Shown piece after piece: positions 29,724-40,371 of a DNA stretch of 40,713 nt (position 1 is the stretch's first letter; each line of letters begins with the position of its first letter). The DNA lies in NCBI GenBank assembly GCA_949288855.1, contig CASELS010000005.1, positions 1 to 40,713 on the forward strand, read 5' to 3'. Source of the stretch: an uncultured Collinsella sp. (GTDB lineage Bacteria > Actinomycetota > Coriobacteriia > Coriobacteriales > Coriobacteriaceae). Both the position numbers and the translations under genes were made by a program. The notes beneath the pieces are model-generated. The model had not been told where the DNA came from. It saw nothing but the letters and a program-made list of their open reading frames with translations, and searched no databases.

Positions 29724-29860
29724 AGGGCACCCCTCCAACCACCTCAAGCAGGTCGCTGCCTCTCAATGGTTACAGTATCCCCCGTCGTGCGGACATAAGC
29801 AGGGCGCACCAACCGCAGAGACGAACCTGCGATATACCGCCTCCCGCGGTGTGGCTCCTG

Positions 29861-29913
29861 TCCCTCACCACAACGAGGGAGGGTTAAGTCTGATGTGCAA
29901 AGTGCCCACATCA
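29861..29913 (-). terminator. Two hairpins after the SIR2 gene, possible end of the defence operon
   Basis: TGATGTG/CACATCA (29891-29897 with 29907-29913) and TCCCTC/GAGGGA (29861-29866 with 29875-29880) follow the stop at 29924. Neither is followed by a T-run on the minus strand, so intrinsic termination is uncertain. Confidence 0.3.
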
Positions 29914-29923
29914 ACAATAAGTG

Positions 29924-30886
29924 CTAACGCATTTCGATTTCTTTCTCAATCTCGTCGAAAGCCTTATCGTAGCCAACCTCATACGTATCTGCAGCTATGG
30001 GACGGTACTCTACTTGCAAACCGCTGAGGGCAATTGCCTTAGCCGTCCCCTTTGCCCTGTTTTGCACATCTCGTTTTTGCTCTTTTTGCTTGTCGTATTC
30101 CATCACGTCGAAATATACGATCGAGTTCATCCGGCCTTTAATCTTTGGACTTGCAGTTTTGAAATATGAGGCTCGCAATGTGAGTAGCCACCACAGGTCA
30201 ATTTCGGAAAAATCGAGTCCCAGACCGATGACATAAACGTTTGAAGAGAAGAACAGATTTGGCCAATAGGCCTCTTCAGATTCCCCGCTCAAGACAATTT
30301 CATCGATCTTCTCGGTAGATGAACTGTGCTTTTCATCGGGCTTATTCAGAAAGTGGCTGCGCATTTTCTGAACATATCCGATGTAGTGCTCGTACCCTAT
30401 GCAAATAGATGACGCATTCTCTAACAAGCCATGGGCATGGAAAAAGCGCACTCCCCCTCTGATGCAAGAGTCTCCAAATAAGTACTTGCTCCCGCCAGGC
30501 CAGTCCCTACGAAAAGTTTCGCTGTCGTCCGGAAATGCCTTTTCGAGCGTACTGTCATAATTCGTCGTGATGATATTGTTCAGCGCCAACGACCTTATCC
30601 GATTATGCAGGGACCTGCACTTTATATCACTTGCCTCCAGCCCATCTTTCACCTGTCTCTTCAGCGCGCTATAAGCGTCCCCGCCCAGTCTTCTCTGCTG
30701 CCCTTCCGTCAAATTGGCACCAATCATCTCAAACTGAATGGGCGCAGGTATTTTCCCGCCTTCTGCATCGGGTTCGATACGGAGGCAGCTTGGGCAAAGA
30801 TCCTTCAAGAGATTGTCCCAAGACACTTCCGGATTACTCGCACGGTTCAGACCGTTGCCAACAAGAAGCGTGTTTTGCTGCAGCAT
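29924..30886 (-). CDS. SIR2-like (NAD-binding) protein, last gene of the defence operon
   Basis: A 320-residue SIR2-fold protein. NAD-site motifs are seen in order: VGNGLNR (residues 9-15), TTNYD (107-111) with the likely catalytic Asn109, FFHAHG (148-153) with His152, and VIGLGLDFSEID (about 219-230). In defence systems such as Thoeris, DSR and SIR2-HerA, SIR2 domains degrade NAD when triggered, causing growth arrest. Here it starts 3 nt after the stop of the Res gene, so it is translated with the restriction operon. GC content is about 42-50% in sampled 60-base lines, well below the Res gene at about 60%, so it probably arrived separately. NADase activity is inferred from motifs. Confidence 0.8.
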   Translation of the reverse strand: MLQQNTLLVGNGLNRASNPEVSWDNLLKDLCPSCLRIEPDAEGGKIPAPIQFEMIGANLTEGQQRRLGGDAYSALKRQVKDGLEASDIKCRSLHNRIRSLALNNIITTNYDSTLEKAFPDDSETFRRDWPGGSKYLFGDSCIRGGVRFFHAHGLLENASSICIGYEHYIGYVQKMRSHFLNKPDEKHSSSTEKIDEIVLSGESEEAYWPNLFFSSNVYVIGLGLDFSEIDLWWLLTLRASYFKTASPKIKGRMNSIVYFDVMEYDKQKEQKRDVQNRAKGTAKAIALSGLQVEYRPIAADTYEVGYDKAFDEIEKEIEMR

Positions 30887-30889
30887 CGC

Positions 30890-33800
30890 CTAATCCCTCA
30901 CAATTGACAGCAGGTCATCAAAATTACTCACCGTGTCAAATCGAACATCCTCGCCACTCATCTCGTTAAAAAGCTTTTTGGCGCAGGCAATTTTTGCGTT
31001 CTCAACGCCACGTAAATCCATGGTTCTCATAGAACCCTTGGTCTCGGCAACAAAGAACACGTGCTTCACGCTTTCCCGCTTGAAGGCAATGGCCCAGTCG
31101 GGAGCATAATTGCCAACTGGCGTTGGAATCTGGAACGAGCGCGGCAGCTTGGCGTAGACAACCACCTCGTCAGCGGCGTCCAGGTCCTCGGCAAACCGGC
31201 GTTCCACGGACTTCACCGCCGTCCCATCCGGAAACACGTAGTCCTGCACATTCTTCTTGGAACGATAGGCGCGCGCCATACTCTCAGGCATGGCATCCGT
31301 GAAGATGGCAGCATCGTAGCGTTCCTCAAGGCGGTTGTAGCTAATATGCTCCACAACCATCGTTGCCTTCTCGTCGACGATGGCATCCCCCACTTTTGCA
31401 ATAAACTCCTCAGGGTTCTCCTTGAAGAGGGCGAACTTCACAGGGCTCATCTCAGAGAGAATCCTCGCCGCGCTACGACGCGTGATGGCAGCACGCTTGG
31501 CAACCTCACCCACTAGGTCGTACTTGACGTGAATGGGAGATACCTCAGAGAAGCTATGCGTCTCCGTCAGCCTCTTCTCGAAGTGACTCTTCGAGTCGAG
31601 CTGCTCGGCACTCCCCCGCTCGGCCTGCTCACCGGTGACGATGCGATACGTCACCTTGGGGACCATAAGGTTGCGGTTAATGTTATCCACGGCCTTGCGC
31701 CGCAGCTCATCGTCATCAAAGTGGACGGTATACGCCTGTTTGAAGTTGATCTTATTCCAAAGCTCCTGAAACTCTCGCTTGCCAAAGTTCTCGTTAAGAG
31801 GATTGGAAAGGACCTTCGTCTCGAGACCGTTGCCCACCATGTCATCAAGCACTGAGCTGTCAAAGACGCTCGTCAGGGCGGTCTCGATAAGCGGAAGCTT
31901 CTGCTCGATAACCGTGCGCGCGGCATCGGGGAGTGCCCCGATCTCCTCACGCCTGATGCCCTCGGTCTTGAACTTGTCGGTAACGCTGCCATCAAGCCCG
32001 ACGTACTCAAGCTTCACAAGTACGTTGTGCACAATTTCCGCCTGTTCGCTATTCAACTCAAGTTTCACGCCATTCGAACCAACAAAGTGAAAGTCCTGGA
32101 GGAACTCCCTCGTGACCTTCTTCGGTCGCTCGCGCAGCTCTGCACGGATGTCCTTCTGCAGGTCGTTCACGAAGCTCGAATAGCTCTCGGATGCGATGAC
32201 CGTGAGGAGGTTTACCTTCTGGACCATGTCCTCGCCAAGCGCACCAACATCCTGACGGTCGCCTTCCTGATTCACGCACAGACGCATGCCACGGCCTACC
32301 TCCTGGCGCTTGCTCGTCTCGGAACCAGACTCCTTGAGCGTGCATATCTGGAAGACGTTAGGGTTGTCCCATCCTTCGCGAAGCGCTGAGTGGGAGAAGA
32401 TAAAGCGCGTAGGCTCGTCAAAGGAAAGCAGGCGCTCTTTGTCCGTTAGGATGAGGTCATAAGCACTTTCGTCGTCGGAATACTCCGACCCGCGTTTTGT
32501 TGCGCTGTCGATTGCGCGGTGTTTTTTATCTATAGAGAAATATCCTTTATGAACCTGACTCGCCTCGAACCTCCCAAGGTACGAGGCGTAAGATCCAGGA
32601 GCATCATCTTCGAAGCGTGGGGAAGCAAGCCGTTCCGCAACAGCGGCGGCGTATTCCTCCTCGAACACTCGACCGTATCCAACCGTCAGCTCTTCTCCGT
32701 CGTCCGAGTATGCGCGGTATTTCGCGACCTCATCGATAAAGAAAAGTGAGAGGCACTTGATGCCCCGCGAGTAGAGCTGCTCCTCCTTCTGGAGATGGCT
32801 CTTAATAGTCTCGCGAATCTGAACGCGACGGATGTCCTCACCGGCAGAGTCACCGACAACCTCGCCGCAATGCAACTCCTCGCCATTGCGGAAGCGCACA
32901 TAGCCGAGAGCGCCGTCTTGATCGGCGCGAATCTCAGACACGACGAAATCGTTGCGATAGGCCTCGAGCTCGCCCGAGGCAATGTAGATGTCGTCACCCT
33001 CGTTAAACGAACCAATGACCTTCTTCACGCTGCCGTTAGCCATGAGCTTCTTGAACTCGATGCGCGCAACAGGAGCGGCCTTGCTCACCTTGATCTCTTG
33101 CAGACAGAGGTAGCCGTCCGTACCGCGCATGCCTCGCACCTCAAAGCCCTTGACCTCGATGCGCTTCACGAGGCGCATGTTGTAGGCGTCGAGCGCGTCG
33201 AGCGCGTAGACCTCGTTGTGGTGCTCCGCATGCGTAGCCGAGTAGTTGAGCGAGAAGAGCGGACGGAACTGCTGCATCGCCTTGCGCGTCGCGCTGTTCT
33301 TCTTCCCCATCTTCTGCGGCTCGTCGAGAATGAGGATGGGGTTGGTAGCTGCCAGGACGTCGATGGGGCGGCGGCTGCCAAAGTCGTCACGCTCGGAGAA
33401 CATGATGCGGGCGGTCTTGTCGCCCCCACGCCCCTCCTTGCTCTTGGACTCGTCGAACGCGTTGAACGCCTGCATGTTAATGACCATGACGGAGATGTCG
33501 CTTCTGCTGGCAAAGGCATCGAGCTCGTTCAGGCGCGAGCTGTTGTAGACAAACCACCAGATGCGCTTCCCGTAGCGATCGGCAAAGTGCCGCTCGGTCA
33601 TAGCGAACGACTTTGCCACGCCCTCGCGAATGGCGACGCTCGGCACCACGATAATGAACTTAGACCACCCGTAGCGCTTGTTGAGCTCGAAGATGGTCTC
33701 GGTATAGACGTAGGTCTTGCCGGTGCCTGTCTCCATCTCAACGTCCAGCTCGCAGGCGCCAAGCGCATGACTGAGCTTGCCCGAGCGCTCGATACCATTG

Positions 33801-34057
33801 CGGTCCTGGATCTTCTTGATATTGTCGAGAAGAACCTCGGAGTCCATCGTCAACGGAGCGTTTTTGTAGCCATCAGAAGCATCGGCATCAAGACTGTCGA
33901 AGTTGCCAATGAACGCCTGGCCCCTCTTGTTATAGAACCCGGCCCCCAGGTCACGAACGAACTGCTGTCCATTAACTTTGGGCTGGCCTTTGAAGACATC
34001 GGCAACTGCGTCTGCTGCCAGAGTCTGGTACTGCTGGACCTTGAACTTGAACTCCAT
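30890..34057 (-). CDS. Type III-like restriction subunit (Res), helicase-nuclease
   Basis: A 1055-residue protein. The SF2 translocase has Walker A in METGTGKT (about 108-115), the DEAD-like box ILDEPQKMG, a SATH motif III, and helicase-C motifs SALREGWDNPN and QEVGRGMRL. A C-terminal PD-(D/E)XK nuclease is visible: Asp987 in APDWAIAF, and Glu1005 and Lys1007 in VAETKG. This is the layout of type III restriction subunits, which translocate and cut DNA when paired with Mod at unmethylated sites. It starts 3 nt after the Mod stop. Length is within the usual 900-1100. Catalytic residues appear intact. Confidence 0.9.
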   Translation of the reverse strand: MEFKFKVQQYQTLAADAVADVFKGQPKVNGQQFVRDLGAGFYNKRGQAFIGNFDSLDADASDGYKNAPLTMDSEVLLDNIKKIQDRNGIERSGKLSHALGACELDVEMETGTGKTYVYTETIFELNKRYGWSKFIIVVPSVAIREGVAKSFAMTERHFADRYGKRIWWFVYNSSRLNELDAFASRSDISVMVINMQAFNAFDESKSKEGRGGDKTARIMFSERDDFGSRRPIDVLAATNPILILDEPQKMGKKNSATRKAMQQFRPLFSLNYSATHAEHHNEVYALDALDAYNMRLVKRIEVKGFEVRGMRGTDGYLCLQEIKVSKAAPVARIEFKKLMANGSVKKVIGSFNEGDDIYIASGELEAYRNDFVVSEIRADQDGALGYVRFRNGEELHCGEVVGDSAGEDIRRVQIRETIKSHLQKEEQLYSRGIKCLSLFFIDEVAKYRAYSDDGEELTVGYGRVFEEEYAAAVAERLASPRFEDDAPGSYASYLGRFEASQVHKGYFSIDKKHRAIDSATKRGSEYSDDESAYDLILTDKERLLSFDEPTRFIFSHSALREGWDNPNVFQICTLKESGSETSKRQEVGRGMRLCVNQEGDRQDVGALGEDMVQKVNLLTVIASESYSSFVNDLQKDIRAELRERPKKVTREFLQDFHFVGSNGVKLELNSEQAEIVHNVLVKLEYVGLDGSVTDKFKTEGIRREEIGALPDAARTVIEQKLPLIETALTSVFDSSVLDDMVGNGLETKVLSNPLNENFGKREFQELWNKINFKQAYTVHFDDDELRRKAVDNINRNLMVPKVTYRIVTGEQAERGSAEQLDSKSHFEKRLTETHSFSEVSPIHVKYDLVGEVAKRAAITRRSAARILSEMSPVKFALFKENPEEFIAKVGDAIVDEKATMVVEHISYNRLEERYDAAIFTDAMPESMARAYRSKKNVQDYVFPDGTAVKSVERRFAEDLDAADEVVVYAKLPRSFQIPTPVGNYAPDWAIAFKRESVKHVFFVAETKGSMRTMDLRGVENAKIACAKKLFNEMSGEDVRFDTVSNFDDLLSIVRD

Positions 34058-34060
34058 AAC

Positions 34061-36109
34061 CTAGATCACCTCGACCTCGGTAATGGAGCTGTAGTTCTTA
34101 AAGATCTCAGCGAAGTTCGAGACGGCATCGTCGCCGGCGAAGGAGGCGTCGCGCATGACCGCGTAGTCGGGCTCCATCTTAGCCATTGCCGTCATGACCT
34201 CGACAGGCACGTCCCTGTCGAAGCTGGCGACAAGACGGCCGCCGTCGACCGAGAAGACCGTGCAGCCGTCGACATCAAGCCGCTCGATGGGCGCTGAGAG
34301 TTCAATCTGCTTCTTAAGCATCACTTGGATAATGAGGTCATCCGCCGTGCGCCCCGGTTTGAGGTTGTCCGCCATGCCAGCGAGCATTTGCTGAGAGTAC
34401 TTCGCTGGTTCTGCGGACACGTCTTCGAAGTTCGAGGAGTCAATCTTGAGTACGCGGAAGCCAACATCGGGAATCCTCTTCGGCTCCTCTCCGAGCTTGA
34501 GCTGACGGTTGGACTCCTCTACTTCAGCAGCAATCTTCTTGCCCGCGCGGCGGATGCGCTCCTTACCAACGCTTGAAACGGAATGGGGTGAGCATGTTTC
34601 TTCGCAGAGTGCTATCGCGTTCTTGATTATTTTCTCGGCACTCTTCTTTTTCGTTCGGGCTAGATTTGCATCCAAATCTTCAGGAATTTGAACCAAGATG
34701 AAACGCCGAGACGATTGGTCACCGAGATTGCTTAACCACATGGCGTGAGCAAATGATCCCGACCCCGAAAAGAAGTCCATTACAATGTCGTCGCCATCAC
34801 TCATCATCGAAATCAGGCGACTCAGAATCGTCTCGTCCTTAGGGTTGGAAAAGACCTCACCTCCCATAAGCCTTGCAAGACGCTTCGAAGCAGCGCGACC
34901 GTCCTGATAGAACACGCTATAAGGAGCAGAATACTCGTGATCTTTGAGATATCGCTTGAAACACGGCACCTTTGCTTCGTCCTCACCAAATTGGACAAGG
35001 TCTTCGGAAATAACCTCCTGCATCCTTCTTTCTGAAAATAGCCAGCCGCGCGAGGGAATGGTCACAGGTTTGCGCGTTACAGGATGCAGGACCTCGTATC
35101 GTGGACCGCCGCCACCAGGCCATGAAATGTCCCCCGGAAAGAAGATTCCCCTATCATCGACCTCGCAATAATGACTGTGATTCTTCGCCGGGTCATTTAC
35201 TGGGAGAGAGCGGTACCAGGCTTTAAGCCCAGTCGCAACAGCTCCATTATCTGAACCGTATTCTTTACGAAGCTTCTCGTACTCAGCATATATTTCGTCG
35301 ATGCCGCTCTTGCGTTCACGCCACATCACACCTCGGTCTTTAAGAATGGCAAGGGAACGAACATAGCAAATGATGTATTCATGAGAAACCGAAACATACT
35401 TTGAATCGTTCTTTCTGCCGGCGGCCCAGATAAACTCAGCAACAAGGTTTCCCTGCCCGAAGATTTCATCCACAATCTTCCTGAGGTTTTCAACCTCGTT
35501 TTCGTCAATGCTAATAAAGAGGGCACCATCATCTGTAAGAAAGTCTCGCGCCAAAAGCAGACGAGAATACATCATTGAGCACCAGTCGGAATGAAACCGA
35601 CCATTGGTCTCGCGATTCACGACTAAACGAGCCCCAGTGTCGTCATAATCTGCGCTCATCTTTTCGTATTCCCCGGGTGACAGTGCAAAGTCGTCTTGGT
35701 AAATTAAATCGTCCCTTGTGTTATAGGGCGGGTCGATGTAAATCATCTTGACCTTGCCGGCGTAGGTGTTGCGCAGGAGCTTGAGCGCGTCGAGGTTGTC
35801 GCCCTCGATGTAGAGGTTGCCGGTCGTGTCCCAGTCCACGCTCTCCTCAGGACACGGGCGCAGGCACTTGTCTATCTGGCGGTATGCCTCCTGCTTGGCT
35901 TCGCGCTTGCCCGGCCAGGTAAACTGGTAGCGCTCCCTCTGCCCCTCGGCGACATCGCCCACGCGCTCCTTGAGGGCATCGACGTCGATGGCGTGGCGAA
36001 GGGTGCCATCGGGCTCGCGGACCTCAGTCACGACCTCGGGAAAGAGCTCGGCGAGCTTCTCGACGTTCTCATCGATGATGTTCTCGGTAGTGTGGGACAG
36101 CTTTTCCAT
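34061..36109 (-). CDS. Type III-like adenine DNA methyltransferase (Mod)
   Basis: A 682-residue beta-class amino-methyltransferase: catalytic DPPY at residues 126-129 (MIYIDPPYNT) comes before the AdoMet site FFSGSG at 446-451, the order found in type III Mod subunits. The stretch between them is the target-recognition domain. Mod should set sequence specificity for itself and Res by methylating adenine on one strand. Its start overlaps the DUF4391 stop by one base. GC of the central part, about 34600-35700, falls to around 37-53% in sampled lines, compared with over 60% in the flanks, which points to exchange of the recognition domain. Confidence 0.92.
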   Translation of the reverse strand: MEKLSHTTENIIDENVEKLAELFPEVVTEVREPDGTLRHAIDVDALKERVGDVAEGQRERYQFTWPGKREAKQEAYRQIDKCLRPCPEESVDWDTTGNLYIEGDNLDALKLLRNTYAGKVKMIYIDPPYNTRDDLIYQDDFALSPGEYEKMSADYDDTGARLVVNRETNGRFHSDWCSMMYSRLLLARDFLTDDGALFISIDENEVENLRKIVDEIFGQGNLVAEFIWAAGRKNDSKYVSVSHEYIICYVRSLAILKDRGVMWRERKSGIDEIYAEYEKLRKEYGSDNGAVATGLKAWYRSLPVNDPAKNHSHYCEVDDRGIFFPGDISWPGGGGPRYEVLHPVTRKPVTIPSRGWLFSERRMQEVISEDLVQFGEDEAKVPCFKRYLKDHEYSAPYSVFYQDGRAASKRLARLMGGEVFSNPKDETILSRLISMMSDGDDIVMDFFSGSGSFAHAMWLSNLGDQSSRRFILVQIPEDLDANLARTKKKSAEKIIKNAIALCEETCSPHSVSSVGKERIRRAGKKIAAEVEESNRQLKLGEEPKRIPDVGFRVLKIDSSNFEDVSAEPAKYSQQMLAGMADNLKPGRTADDLIIQVMLKKQIELSAPIERLDVDGCTVFSVDGGRLVASFDRDVPVEVMTAMAKMEPDYAVMRDASFAGDDAVSNFAEIFKNYSSITEVEVI

Positions 36110-36723
36110 CAGGACTCTCCCTCCAGACGGGACAGCTCAGCCTCGATCGCACGCTTGCGGTCGAAAAGAGCGTTCCTCTTGGTAATTTGCTTTTCTGACT
36201 TGCGCTTTCGTTCAACCTGTTCAAGCTCGAGCCGCAGCGCCTCGCTCCGCCTCTTGCGCTCAAGGCGCCCGGTAAGGTCAACGGAGTTGGCGTCGCCAAA
36301 AATGACCTGAGACGAGATGGAATTCCAGAGCTCTCCCAAGGTCGATCCCGTCAACTCGAGCTTGGCGTCATCAGCCGACACCCATTTCGTCTCATAGAGA
36401 CGATCTCGCCTCACGAGCAACTTGCAAGACTCATCCGTTAGACAAACGAAGAGCAGCTTGTTGGGTATCGAGCGGGCAACCAACTCGATTGCCCCATAGG
36501 GGACATCAGTACCTTTGAGGCGGAGCGCGAGAACATCTATCTCCGCCACGTCCTGGTCACTGGGGATGTGGATGCTGGCCTCCTTGATGGAGGCAACCAT
36601 CTCGATGCGTTCGACCTGCTGGACGAGCTGTTCCTTGATGGCAGCCGTCGTCTTAAGGTGCTCGTAGAACGCCTTCTTGGGCATCACACGGTTAACGAGA
36701 ACCGTGCTCGGCAAGTTAAGCAC
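36109..36723 (-). CDS. DUF4391-family protein of the restriction operon
   Basis: A 204-residue protein of the DUF4391 family, seen mainly next to type III-like Mod/Res genes and SNF2-type helicases; its function is unknown. It has a mixed N-terminal part (LPSTVLVNRVMPKKAFYEHL, then IHIPSDQDVAEIDVLALRL) and a charged C-terminal coiled coil (about 150-200, LERKRRSEALRLELEQVERK) suited to protein contacts. The start is a GTG overlapping the helicase stop by 8 bp, with GAGG a few bases upstream. Its end overlaps the Mod start. It is likely a scaffold or adaptor, which is inference. Confidence 0.8.
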   Translation of the reverse strand: MLNLPSTVLVNRVMPKKAFYEHLKTTAAIKEQLVQQVERIEMVASIKEASIHIPSDQDVAEIDVLALRLKGTDVPYGAIELVARSIPNKLLFVCLTDESCKLLVRRDRLYETKWVSADDAKLELTGSTLGELWNSISSQVIFGDANSVDLTGRLERKRRSEALRLELEQVERKRKSEKQITKRNALFDRKRAIEAELSRLEGES

Positions 36724-39700
36724 GAGTCCTCACCACCAAGAAACAAACAAGCTCGAAGTCGTCGAGGCCAGCGACGTCGTTCTCCAGGAAGCTCGTGGTG
36801 CCGCCGGAGAAGAAGCTGTCGAGATCGGCCTCGGCCTTCTCCTCCACGATCGACTCGATGGCGCTGCGCAGCAGACTTGAGGCGGCGCGCATGTCTCGCC
36901 CGTTCTTCGTAGCCTTGTTGTAAGCACGGCAGAGCGACGAATCGGGCTCGGACTTGCCTTTACACAGGCGTCTCATGGCGTCGAGAGACTCTTTGGGATC
37001 GAGGTAGCCGTGCACCACCTCGCCGTCATCGCTTACGTACACCAGGTAGAACGGGTGAATCTGGTTGCGCGTCTTGGCGTCAAGCTCCTGGTTCACGTTG
37101 CGGAGCACGAAGATGATGCCCGGCGTGTCACCCTCTACCACGGCATCAATGCCCGTGGGAACGTGGTCGATATCCGGGTTCTCCTGGTAGTAGGAGACGA
37201 GGTCCATCCGGAAGTCGTTGAGGCCGAGGTCGGTTATCGAGACTCCGCCCGAAACGTCCTCGAGGTCAACGACCTCGTGTTTCATCTGCTCGAGTTGCTG
37301 CTTGCGGTACTCGAGGTCACCCTTCTCGTCCTCGTTGATGTAGTCGTCGTCGCCGGTCGAGGTCATGACAACGGCGTGCATGCGGTTCTCGACGCGCGCC
37401 TTGAGGTTGATGTAGTTATCCAGGTCCTCGTCCGGCCAGAAATTGACGAGCTGAATGACATCGTTCCTTGAGCCGATACGGTCCACGCGGCCAAAGCGCT
37501 GGACGATGCGCACCGGGTTCCAATGGATGTCATAATTCACCAGATAGTCGCAGTCCTGGAGGTTCTGCCCCTCTGAGATGCAGTCCGTGGCAATAAGGAT
37601 GTCGATGTCCTTGTCACGCAGGCGCGGGTAGACCTTGTCGCGGTCCTTGGAGACAGGCGAGAAGCAGGTGAGAATCTCGGAGAGATCACCGCGAACCCCG
37701 TCAACGTTGGTCTTGCCGCCACCCGATCCTGTGACCTCCGCTACCCCCAAGCCGAGTTCACGGGATGCGAACTCAGAAACGTGTTCATAAAGGTAATTCG
37801 CAGTGTCAGCGAAGGCAGTGAAGACAATGACCTTCTTGTTGCCCGAGTTGATGGGATTCTCTGCCTTCTCAGCGATGAGGCGTTCGAGACGCAAGAGCTT
37901 GTCGTCATGCTCGGCATCGATGCCGCGGATCATCTCAATCAGACCCTCAATGGTCTGGGCATCGTCCCGAACATCCTTTTCCCAACTCTTCCAATCGAGA
38001 TCGCGCAAATCGAACTGTGTTTTACCGCCCACGGAAAAGTCCATGAAATCGGCGTCCTCGTAATCAAAATCAAAGCCGGTCCCAAACGAGGACGAATCAA
38101 CGCTCTTAGAAACAGCGCCCTCCGCCTTGAACACCTCAATGGTGTTGAGGCACTGGTTCATGACAGAAAAAACGCGCTCGAGCGTGAGCCTGAACGACGA
38201 GACGGAGCTCTCGAGGCGCTTGAGCAGGTTGGCTGCCATGAGCTTACGGACACCCGTCTCGCGGCCGCTTGTGGTGAGGTTGCCGTTCTTGTCCTCGTAC
38301 TTACCTCGAGCCGACGGGAGCAGATAGTGCGAGGGAATGTAAACAGCAAGCTTGATCAAATCAAGCGAGCTGGCAATCTCACTGTATGTGGTGCTGTTTG
38401 GCAGCGTTGAGAGCTTGGGATAGACTGAGATTGGGTCGTTGCGCCGCGGGAACGGGCCTATGGCGTTCACATCGTAGTAACGCTGGATGTGCTTGCGCGA
38501 GCGAGCAACTGTCACTTGATCGAGAACCCTAAAGAAGTCGAAGTCGAGCGAGTCAGTGAGTGCCTCGGTGCTGCGTTCCTCAGCTGGGAGCTTAGACCAG
38601 GCCGTGAAGGCGCTTTGGGCGCTCCTGAACACGTCCTCGATGTCGGAAGAGAGCCCGAGCTTCTCCGACCATCCAGCCGGATCCCCCTGGTAAGCGAGCC
38701 TCAGCTGATTTCGCAGGTCACGGAAGCGGTTGTTGACAGGGGTCGCGGAGAGCATGAGCACCTTGGTGGGGACTCCGCCGCGAATGACGTGGTTTATCAG
38801 ACGCTGATAGCGATTCTCGGTACCACCGGTCCCGTCTTCCTTTGCCGCAGTTGCCGTGTCTTCACCATTACGGAAGTTGTGAGACTCATCGATGACGACG
38901 AGGTCATATCCGCCCCAGTTGATTGTCTCCAAGTCTATGCCCGTGACGGTCCTGCCTCGCTTGCGTGAGAGGTCGGTGTGATAGAGCACGTCATAGCGGA
39001 GACGATCGCTGGCTATGGGATTATTGACCTGATTGTTGCGGTACATCGTCCAGTTGTCCGAGAGCTTCTTGGGACAAAGGACAAGCACATTGCGATTGAG
39101 CGACTCATAGTACTTGATTACAGCGAGCGCTGTGAACGTCTTGCCGAGGCCTACGCTGTCGGCAAGGATGCAGCCATCATAGGTCTGGAGCTTGTTGATG
39201 ATGGCGAGAACCGCATCCCTCTGGAAGTCGTAGAGGAGGTTCCAAATGGCACTTTCGCGGAATCCAGTCCCCTCCTTGGGAAGATTGTCCGCCGAGACGT
39301 CATCAAGGAACTCATGAAAGATTCGATAGAGCGCTGCATAGTAAACGAGCTCGGGCGCGTTCTCCCGATACATTGCTTGGATGTTGTCGATGACCGTAGC
39401 TGTGACGTCCTCGAGCGCTTCGCTCTCCCAAGCCTGGTCGAACATAGCGAGGTACTGTCGCGACTGGTCGGAACTCTGCCGCCACACGCCCGTCATAACC
39501 GGATGGTCACCCACTCCGAGCGCCCCCACCGAGAAGCTCTGGACACCCAGATATGCTGCAGCGTCTTCACCTTCGACCGCAAGACCCGACATCACTGGGG
39601 CGATCCCCGACTTTGAGGATTTGAAACGAGCCTTCGCCTTAATCCAGCTCGCACACTCAGAAGCGACAGCCTTTTGCGTGAGCTCATTGCGAAGTTTGAT

Positions 39701-39970
39701 TTCAAACTCCGTACCGTAAAGTCCTTGCTCGCGCGAGAGACGCGGGATGTAGAACTCGCGCTGCTCCTTCTTGGCGCGTTCCTTGGCGAAAGTCGGCTCA
39801 GTATAGATGAATCGGAATTCATCAAGTGACTCAAGCTGTTCGCGGAGCTCGTTGAAGGCGTACATCGAGAACACCGACGCCGCGACAGAAACCGTATCCC
39901 CTTCTTTGATAATCCTTACGAGATCATCCTTTAGGATATTGGTCCTATTATCGAAAAACGCATTGTCCAT
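36716..39970 (-). CDS. SNF2-like helicase with N-terminal PLD-like domain, first gene of the defence operon
   Basis: A 1084-residue protein. Residues about 10-190 resemble a phospholipase D-like domain as found in restriction helicases, but without an HxK catalytic motif (VQSFSVGALGVGDHPVMTG in the expected place). The SNF2/RapA-type motor follows: LADSVGLGKT (about 269-278), DESHN (361-365), LSATPVNNR, and helicase-C motifs ATDCISEGQNLQDCDYLVN and QRFGRVDRIGS. The C-terminal 200 residues are of unknown fold. Related helicases occur in DISARM and other defence loci and move along or remodel DNA. It leads the operon, overlapping DUF4391, and is downstream of a run of nine G on its strand. The weak ribosome site AAGGGGG lies about 13 nt from the ATG. 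Confidence 0.88.
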   Translation of the reverse strand: MDNAFFDNRTNILKDDLVRIIKEGDTVSVAASVFSMYAFNELREQLESLDEFRFIYTEPTFAKERAKKEQREFYIPRLSREQGLYGTEFEIKLRNELTQKAVASECASWIKAKARFKSSKSGIAPVMSGLAVEGEDAAAYLGVQSFSVGALGVGDHPVMTGVWRQSSDQSRQYLAMFDQAWESEALEDVTATVIDNIQAMYRENAPELVYYAALYRIFHEFLDDVSADNLPKEGTGFRESAIWNLLYDFQRDAVLAIINKLQTYDGCILADSVGLGKTFTALAVIKYYESLNRNVLVLCPKKLSDNWTMYRNNQVNNPIASDRLRYDVLYHTDLSRKRGRTVTGIDLETINWGGYDLVVIDESHNFRNGEDTATAAKEDGTGGTENRYQRLINHVIRGGVPTKVLMLSATPVNNRFRDLRNQLRLAYQGDPAGWSEKLGLSSDIEDVFRSAQSAFTAWSKLPAEERSTEALTDSLDFDFFRVLDQVTVARSRKHIQRYYDVNAIGPFPRRNDPISVYPKLSTLPNSTTYSEIASSLDLIKLAVYIPSHYLLPSARGKYEDKNGNLTTSGRETGVRKLMAANLLKRLESSVSSFRLTLERVFSVMNQCLNTIEVFKAEGAVSKSVDSSSFGTGFDFDYEDADFMDFSVGGKTQFDLRDLDWKSWEKDVRDDAQTIEGLIEMIRGIDAEHDDKLLRLERLIAEKAENPINSGNKKVIVFTAFADTANYLYEHVSEFASRELGLGVAEVTGSGGGKTNVDGVRGDLSEILTCFSPVSKDRDKVYPRLRDKDIDILIATDCISEGQNLQDCDYLVNYDIHWNPVRIVQRFGRVDRIGSRNDVIQLVNFWPDEDLDNYINLKARVENRMHAVVMTSTGDDDYINEDEKGDLEYRKQQLEQMKHEVVDLEDVSGGVSITDLGLNDFRMDLVSYYQENPDIDHVPTGIDAVVEGDTPGIIFVLRNVNQELDAKTRNQIHPFYLVYVSDDGEVVHGYLDPKESLDAMRRLCKGKSEPDSSLCRAYNKATKNGRDMRAASSLLRSAIESIVEEKAEADLDSFFSGGTTSFLENDVAGLDDFELVCFLVVRTRA

Positions 39971-40040
39971 CCGCTACGCCACCCCCTTGGGACAGCGTGG
40001 CTGGATATACAGGGTTAAGCCGACACCCCTACTCGGAGCG

Positions 40041-40049
40041 CCCCCCCCC
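40041..40049. repeat. Nine-base homopolymer (C on plus, G on minus)
   Basis: An uninterrupted run of nine, 71-79 bp upstream of the helicase ATG. Such runs are prone to slippage; the location before a restriction operon makes phase variation worth considering. A count error in assembly is also possible. Confidence 0.7.
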
Positions 40050-40101
40050 GCTACGTTTTTCCAGTTCACAAGCGACACCATGTGCTCGCTCCCCTTATTG
40101 C

Positions 40102-40159
40102 CCGGTATACCTCTTACACCGGTATGTCTAAAGATTAATCAACAGTACCATGATACCGG
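40102..40159. promoter_or_regulatory. Three CCGGTAT repeats, candidate operator cluster
   Basis: CCGGTAT occurs at 40102-40108 and 40119-40125 (17 bp apart, same direction) and inverted at 40153-40159. The first is part of GGTATACC. They lie between the two divergent starts and could bind a regulator of either the amylase gene or the defence operon. Confidence 0.35.
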
Positions 40160-40371
40160 GTCATCCATGTTCTGGCCTTCATTGATTGCACGGAAGATTG
40201 CTTCGCCTCTTCGCCCCGAGAGGACGGCAGCGCCTTTGGATTACTCCGTCCAAACGATTCTCAGAACCGCCCTCAACGCATGGCTCACGCCACCATCCCT
40301 GCACACGCGGGCGAATCCGGTCGCGTATCATATGCCGAGCGCATACGACGCGCAATCATAGGAGGACATTC

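Follow-up and report, generated by a model that had tools for sequence, protein, structure and literature searches.

A SIR2-like gene occupies an exchangeable slot at the end of an SNF2-DUF4391 type III-like restriction operon

Proteins with a SIR2 domain act in several bacterial defence systems. ThsA of Thoeris and the SIR2 protein of Nezha both defend against phage and consume NAD+ (PMC7272460, PMC11559045). The ThsA residues that match Asn109 and His152 of the protein described here are required for NAD+ cleavage (PMC7272460). The Nezha SIR2 depends on a partner; deletion of herA abolishes immunity (PMC11559045). Defence systems can also be embedded in others. Examples are DarTG2 or PrrC in type I restriction-modification systems (preprint of Payne et al., 2024, cited in PMC12255303). 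Close likenesses of the operon described below also include the type III restriction-modification system EcoP15I and the PADLOC entry C3a139.

The operon lies in a 40,713 nt stretch of DNA (hereafter the window) from an uncultured Collinsella sp., a bacterium of gut type. The source genome is a draft of 126 contigs that is 89% complete, and the window is one contig. Its nearest named relatives are Olsenella and Atopobiaceae. The features of the locus are as follows.

36716..39970, minus strand: SNF2-type helicase/translocase, first gene; 1084 aa (Pfam, PADLOC)
36109..36723, minus strand: DUF4391 protein; 204 aa, GTG start, 8 nt overlap with the helicase gene (Pfam)
34061..36109, minus strand: Mod, type III DNA methyltransferase; 682 aa (PADLOC, EcoP15I match, DPPY)
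30890..34057, minus strand: Res, type III restriction subunit; 1055 aa (PADLOC, EcoP15I match, motifs)
29924..30886, minus strand: SIR2-like protein, occupant of an exchangeable fifth-gene slot; 320 aa (Pfam, AlphaFold2, Foldseek)
29798..40266, no strand: variable stretch within a chromosomal site of exchangeable content, holding little besides the five-gene operon (flanks compared with G056)

The five genes occupy positions 29924-39970 of the minus strand, in the order helicase, DUF4391, Mod, Res and SIR2. Successive junctions measure -8, -1, +3 and +3 nt. The sequence-only reading had described five coupled genes with these spacings, and the open reading frame list and domain searches bear it out. 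Scans for promoters and terminators gave matches no more numerous than those in shuffled sequences. The operon fills an exchangeable site, with a HIRAN-domain gene at one border and an amylase-like gene at the other. A genome from the same genus, G056 (C6), is alike on the left as far as position ~29797 (97% nucleotide identity) and on the right from position ~40267 (98%). Between the same flanks, G056 carries a BREX operon ~21 kb long. A PglZ gene adjoins the same right flank in G053 (C17).

Mod and Res have the features of a type III system. Mod has adenine/cytosine-N methyltransferase motifs and its own recognition domain, and Res has an SF2 ATPase and a nuclease. Mod matched Pfam N6_N4_Mtase (1e-24), PADLOC MTase_III (7e-193) and the EcoP15I Mod subunit (3e-69). 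Its DPPY motif is at residue 126, and its hypervariable part, the target-recognition block, spans residues ~205-425. Res matched Pfam ResIII (3e-12) and RE_endonuc (3e-29), PADLOC REase_III (3e-278) and EcoP15I Res (1e-69). The SF2 helicase is joined to a C-terminal PD-(D/E)XK nuclease, with PD...ETK corresponding to Asp987, Glu1005 and Lys1007. The residues singled out earlier for mutation (Mod DPPY, Res Asp987 and SIR2 Asn109/His152) were all located in the sequences. The matches to the EcoP15I subunits cover the catalytic regions, and mod precedes res in both cases. Unlike EcoP15I, the window has an SNF2 helicase and DUF4391 gene before mod, and a coupled SIR2 gene after res.

The product of the first gene matched Pfam SNF2-rel (1.5e-9) and Helicase_C (9e-16), and contains the motifs GKT, DESH and SATP. 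It had been called PLD-like. We rejected this description. Pfam found no PLD domain, the HxK(x)4D motif is absent from the sequence, and the N-terminal 240 residues have no conserved His across 66 homologues. Furthermore, the match to the 'HKD+Snf2' model of PADLOC C3a139 (2e-125) is confined to residues 176-1080. Alongside this model, which the helicase matches, Mod and Res of the window match the PADLOC type III models MTase_III and REase_III. Conversely, the window helicase lacks the HKD nuclease motif, no PADLOC model matched the DUF4391 protein, and the PADLOC SIR2 models gave only weak matches to the window SIR2. The locus also differs from DISARM; the helicase reached 130 bits where the cut-off for DrmD is 610, and no DrmABC was found among the operon genes and two neighbours. 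Separately, helicase residues ~100-200 form a block that is 57-70% identical between the window and G549, with the remainder mostly above 90%. One version of this block is common to the window and G043, and another occurs in the other close relatives.

The second gene encodes a protein matching Pfam PF14335 (7.7e-34). The AlphaFold2 model (pLDDT 91) has an alpha/beta domain and a C-terminal helical hairpin. Comparison of the model with the PDB gave no significant fold match (best E 0.09, low TM scores). We did not accept a nuclease assignment by fold, the weak match to a Holliday-junction resolvase being no evidence of one.

For the fifth protein, Pfam SIR2_2 (7e-7) was the sole domain match in 320 aa. 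The protein contains GNG at residues 10-12, Asn109 and His152. All are invariant in nine aligned members of the family, and the catalytic residues are intact in every SIR2 of the recurring operons described below. The AlphaFold2 model (pLDDT 81, pTM 0.85) was used in a Foldseek search, which returned ThsA (9e-9), KomC and DSR2, each with a probability of 1.00. A single-sequence search of the PDB found nothing; a profile of the family picked up ThsA, KomC and human FAM118B by sequence. The window SIR2 shares its fold and the conserved Asn and His with ThsA, DSR2 and KomC at ~10-17% identity. It is a single chain of 320 aa, and differs from ThsA in having no SLOG domain and from DSR2 in having no long C-terminal part. 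The catalytic Asn and His are also shared with Nezha. Conversely, the window operon has no HerA, and the PADLOC SIR2-HerA models do not recognise its SIR2. Since fold and catalytic residues match ThsA, which requires these residues to cleave NAD+, the window SIR2 is likely to be an NADase.

In four species, the gap between Res and the SIR2 gene measures -1 to +3 nt: G000, G549 (an uncultured Olsenella), G531 and G368. In G543 (L004/L047 3544-4721), a remnant retains only the final ~73 residues of Res; the SIR2 gene that comes next contains an in-frame TAG. A ToxN gene is not far from this remnant. The coupled fifth gene proposed by the sequence-only reading is therefore not peculiar to one strain, since it occurs in three further species and the remnant. 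Its recurrence in four species also makes the five-gene order more than chance. A phylum-wide draw of 346 genomes yielded no relatives beyond those already found.

The first four genes are far more widespread. Of 397 Coriobacteriales genomes, 73 have a homologous helicase, as do 102 plasmids, including plasmids of Listeria, Enterococcus, Escherichia and Acinetobacter. The survey covered chromosomes of Actinomycetota, and other phyla through plasmids only. The order helicase-DUF4391-Mod-Res, which the sequence-only reading had called recurrent, is indeed the rule, with or without extra genes in between. SIR2 was absent after Res from all nine core-bearing plasmid records inspected. In-frame stops were flagged in many helicase homologues. 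These are probably terminal stops, because the genes concerned read open for more than 1000 residues.

Defence genes occur at other positions of the core. These include OLD, AbiJ_NTD4, SLFN_AlbA, GmrSD, HEC-01A/B (PARIS-like) and SIR2-HerA. In G528 (L104 5028-7753), a Nezha-like SIR2-HerA pair lies between DUF4391 and Mod, and is thus embedded in the same core as that of the window. A homologous pair, 65% and 72% identical, has an equal position in G562 (L092 12182-14886). The Aeromonas plasmid pE31A (L018 21694-23485) carries HEC-01A/B, a PARIS-like pair of AAA and DUF4276 proteins, between Mod and Res. Finally, G560 (L127) and G643 (L128) belong to different species, but the ORF layout of their helicase-DUF4391-Mod regions agrees to the base, and their slot proteins are identical. 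This likeness suggests very recent transfer.

The position after Res was compared in nine operons with a helicase at least 90% identical to that of the window. All nine have a gene there, coupled to Res at -4 to +7 nt. Its product is SIR2 in four cases, weakly HTH-like in two, a member of a 172 aa family in two and a 190 aa protein in one. Res of G043 and G060 is 98% identical, and the fifth genes are different. Similarly, across seven operons Res is 91-96% identical and the fifth genes are of four kinds. More widely, 53 operons have a complete helicase and Res. In 32 of these a same-strand gene is coupled to Res (here, from -31 to +30 nt), compared with 52 of 190 background same-strand neighbour pairs. 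The fifth position is an exchangeable accessory slot, and SIR2 is one occupant. The core does not need SIR2, because operons whose Res is 95-98% identical have unrelated genes in fifth place. Several slot proteins, of 172, 190, 377 or 667 aa, have no family or a marginal match only (L085 10219-10734, L083 9197-9712, L084 10254-10823, L098 10282-11412 and L117 7707-9707).

A recurrent position in a host defence operon, with cargo swapped between close relatives, is what marks an embedded accessory gene, and both are found here. As far as embedded defences are described in the source that cites the preprint, they too are accessory defence genes inside or at the end of a restriction-modification operon, at a recurrent position. 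Compared with that account, the host differs, being a type III core with SNF2 and DUF4391, and swapping affects not only which kind of cargo is present but also the alleles within one cargo family. The literature searched, which did not extend to the main embedding preprint, contained no description of the fifth-gene slot of this core or of SIR2 there. The core itself is almost absent from that literature, with DUF4391 found in one paper, as a table listing. In this literature the slot appears to be undescribed, while the embedding of defences in one another is an already known theme.

The SIR2 gene itself also varies between operons. Among SIR2-bearing operons, the SIR2 proteins are 41-53% identical and dS is saturated. 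Identity is 88-97% for the helicase, DUF4391 protein and Res, and dS ranges over 0.32-0.79 (0.33-0.79 for Res alone); the dS figures are from three of the four operons. Of the operon parts, only the Mod recognition block diverges like SIR2, being 19-28% identical between flanks that are 78-93% identical. Judged from synonymous sites, which are saturated in SIR2 and unsaturated in Res, SIR2 is replaced by divergent alleles, as is the Mod recognition domain. For the same reason, and given the unsaturated helicase, we rejected a vertically kept, fast-evolving SIR2 gene. SIR2 type can be set against Mod recognition type in four operons only, and their recognition blocks are all unrelated.

Members of the same SIR2 family directly follow PglX in two BREX operons.

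G056, L037 8623-9597: SIR2 relative directly after PglX
G548, L049 9337-10287: SIR2 relative directly after PglX

SIR2 after PglX may represent a BREX accessory gene not yet on record. Other family members stand alone: in Salmonella on an ICE, and in Vibrio and Sphingomonas on plasmids. A 1140 aa protein is encoded downstream of SIR2 in two settings, the type III-like one of G368 (L030 47-3469) and the BREX one of G548 (L049 4573-7995). The two copies are 95% identical and have no match in Pfam or PADLOC. The occurrence of the family in BREX and alone, together with the exchange of SIR2, argues for a self-contained module. The core may still control SIR2 and be needed to switch it on, because the Nezha SIR2 needs HerA. 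Moreover, each of the seven short SIR2 genes found in Coriobacteriales comes directly after a component of a methylase-based operon (res in five cases, including the remnant, and pglX in two), which could mean functional linkage instead of cargo.

Taken together, we consider it rather probable that the operon encodes restriction-modification of a type III-like form, with SNF2 and DUF4391 as conserved extras, and that in it the slot SIR2 is a co-expressed, exchangeable NADase cargo. The SIR2 would be a second defence layer and not an obligate subunit. Mod would mark host DNA, and Res would cut phage DNA without the marks. SIR2, expressed from the same operon, would be held inactive until infection proceeds. 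Once activated, it would deplete NAD+, and the cell would stop before phage release, an abortive outcome. Most likely, SIR2 is largely self-contained; it would travel with the core and share its expression. The sequence-only reading had instead proposed a two-stage defence, with NAD depletion following failed restriction. An NADase-competent SIR2 remains plausible given the invariant residues and fold. The idea of a fixed second stage is weakened; SIR2 is in four of the nine close operons, Res proteins 95-98% identical have different fifth genes, and the family is also found in BREX and alone. In its obligate form, the restriction complex would itself detect that restriction has failed, whether through inhibition or stalling of Res or through unmodified DNA, and would activate SIR2 directly. 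Coupling in one operon, recurrent in four species, would fit this, as would the invariable place of the seven short SIR2 genes directly after res or pglX and the entry of a SIR2-HerA pair into the same core at another position. We nevertheless think it unlikely, as such a system is at odds with unrelated fifth genes beside near-identical Res proteins, with SIR2 relatives beside BREX or alone, and with the exchange of SIR2 without matching change in Res and the helicase. Similarly doubtful is a core that serves as a platform and switches on a dedicated slot product. The Mod recognition domain and slot effector would then be swapped as cassettes, with the rest constant.

Two further explanations give SIR2 another role, or none. 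SIR2 could act on NAD but serve to stabilise the island, to cause addiction to it or to regulate the restriction system, instead of being a phage-triggered effector. Two other fifth genes weakly resemble small DNA-binding (HTH-like) proteins and not toxins; the slot could thus be one for regulators. Likewise, where the core was lost in G543, the lone SIR2 remnant has an in-frame stop. Because the tested fold relatives, ThsA and the Nezha SIR2, are NAD+-consuming phage-defence enzymes (PMC7272460, PMC11559045), and the other cargo of the core consists of classic defence genes, we regard this explanation as improbable. Least credible is a chance neighbour that was inserted after Res and has no functional link to it. 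The locus is an exchangeable site and relatives of SIR2 stand alone elsewhere, which speaks for this reading, but position and coupling are alike in four species despite differing SIR2 sequence histories, and the catalytic residues are intact in all.

On the cargo reading that we prefer, a widespread core hosts defence genes, both in a coupled slot after res and at other filled positions. Slot proteins still without a name, whether HTH-like or of 172, 190, 377 or 667 aa, are, by position and association, defence candidates. If the core were a platform, one sensing machine would drive many alternative effectors, SIR2 included. Near-identical cores that differ in the fifth gene offer swap experiments made by nature on whether the core controls its cargo.
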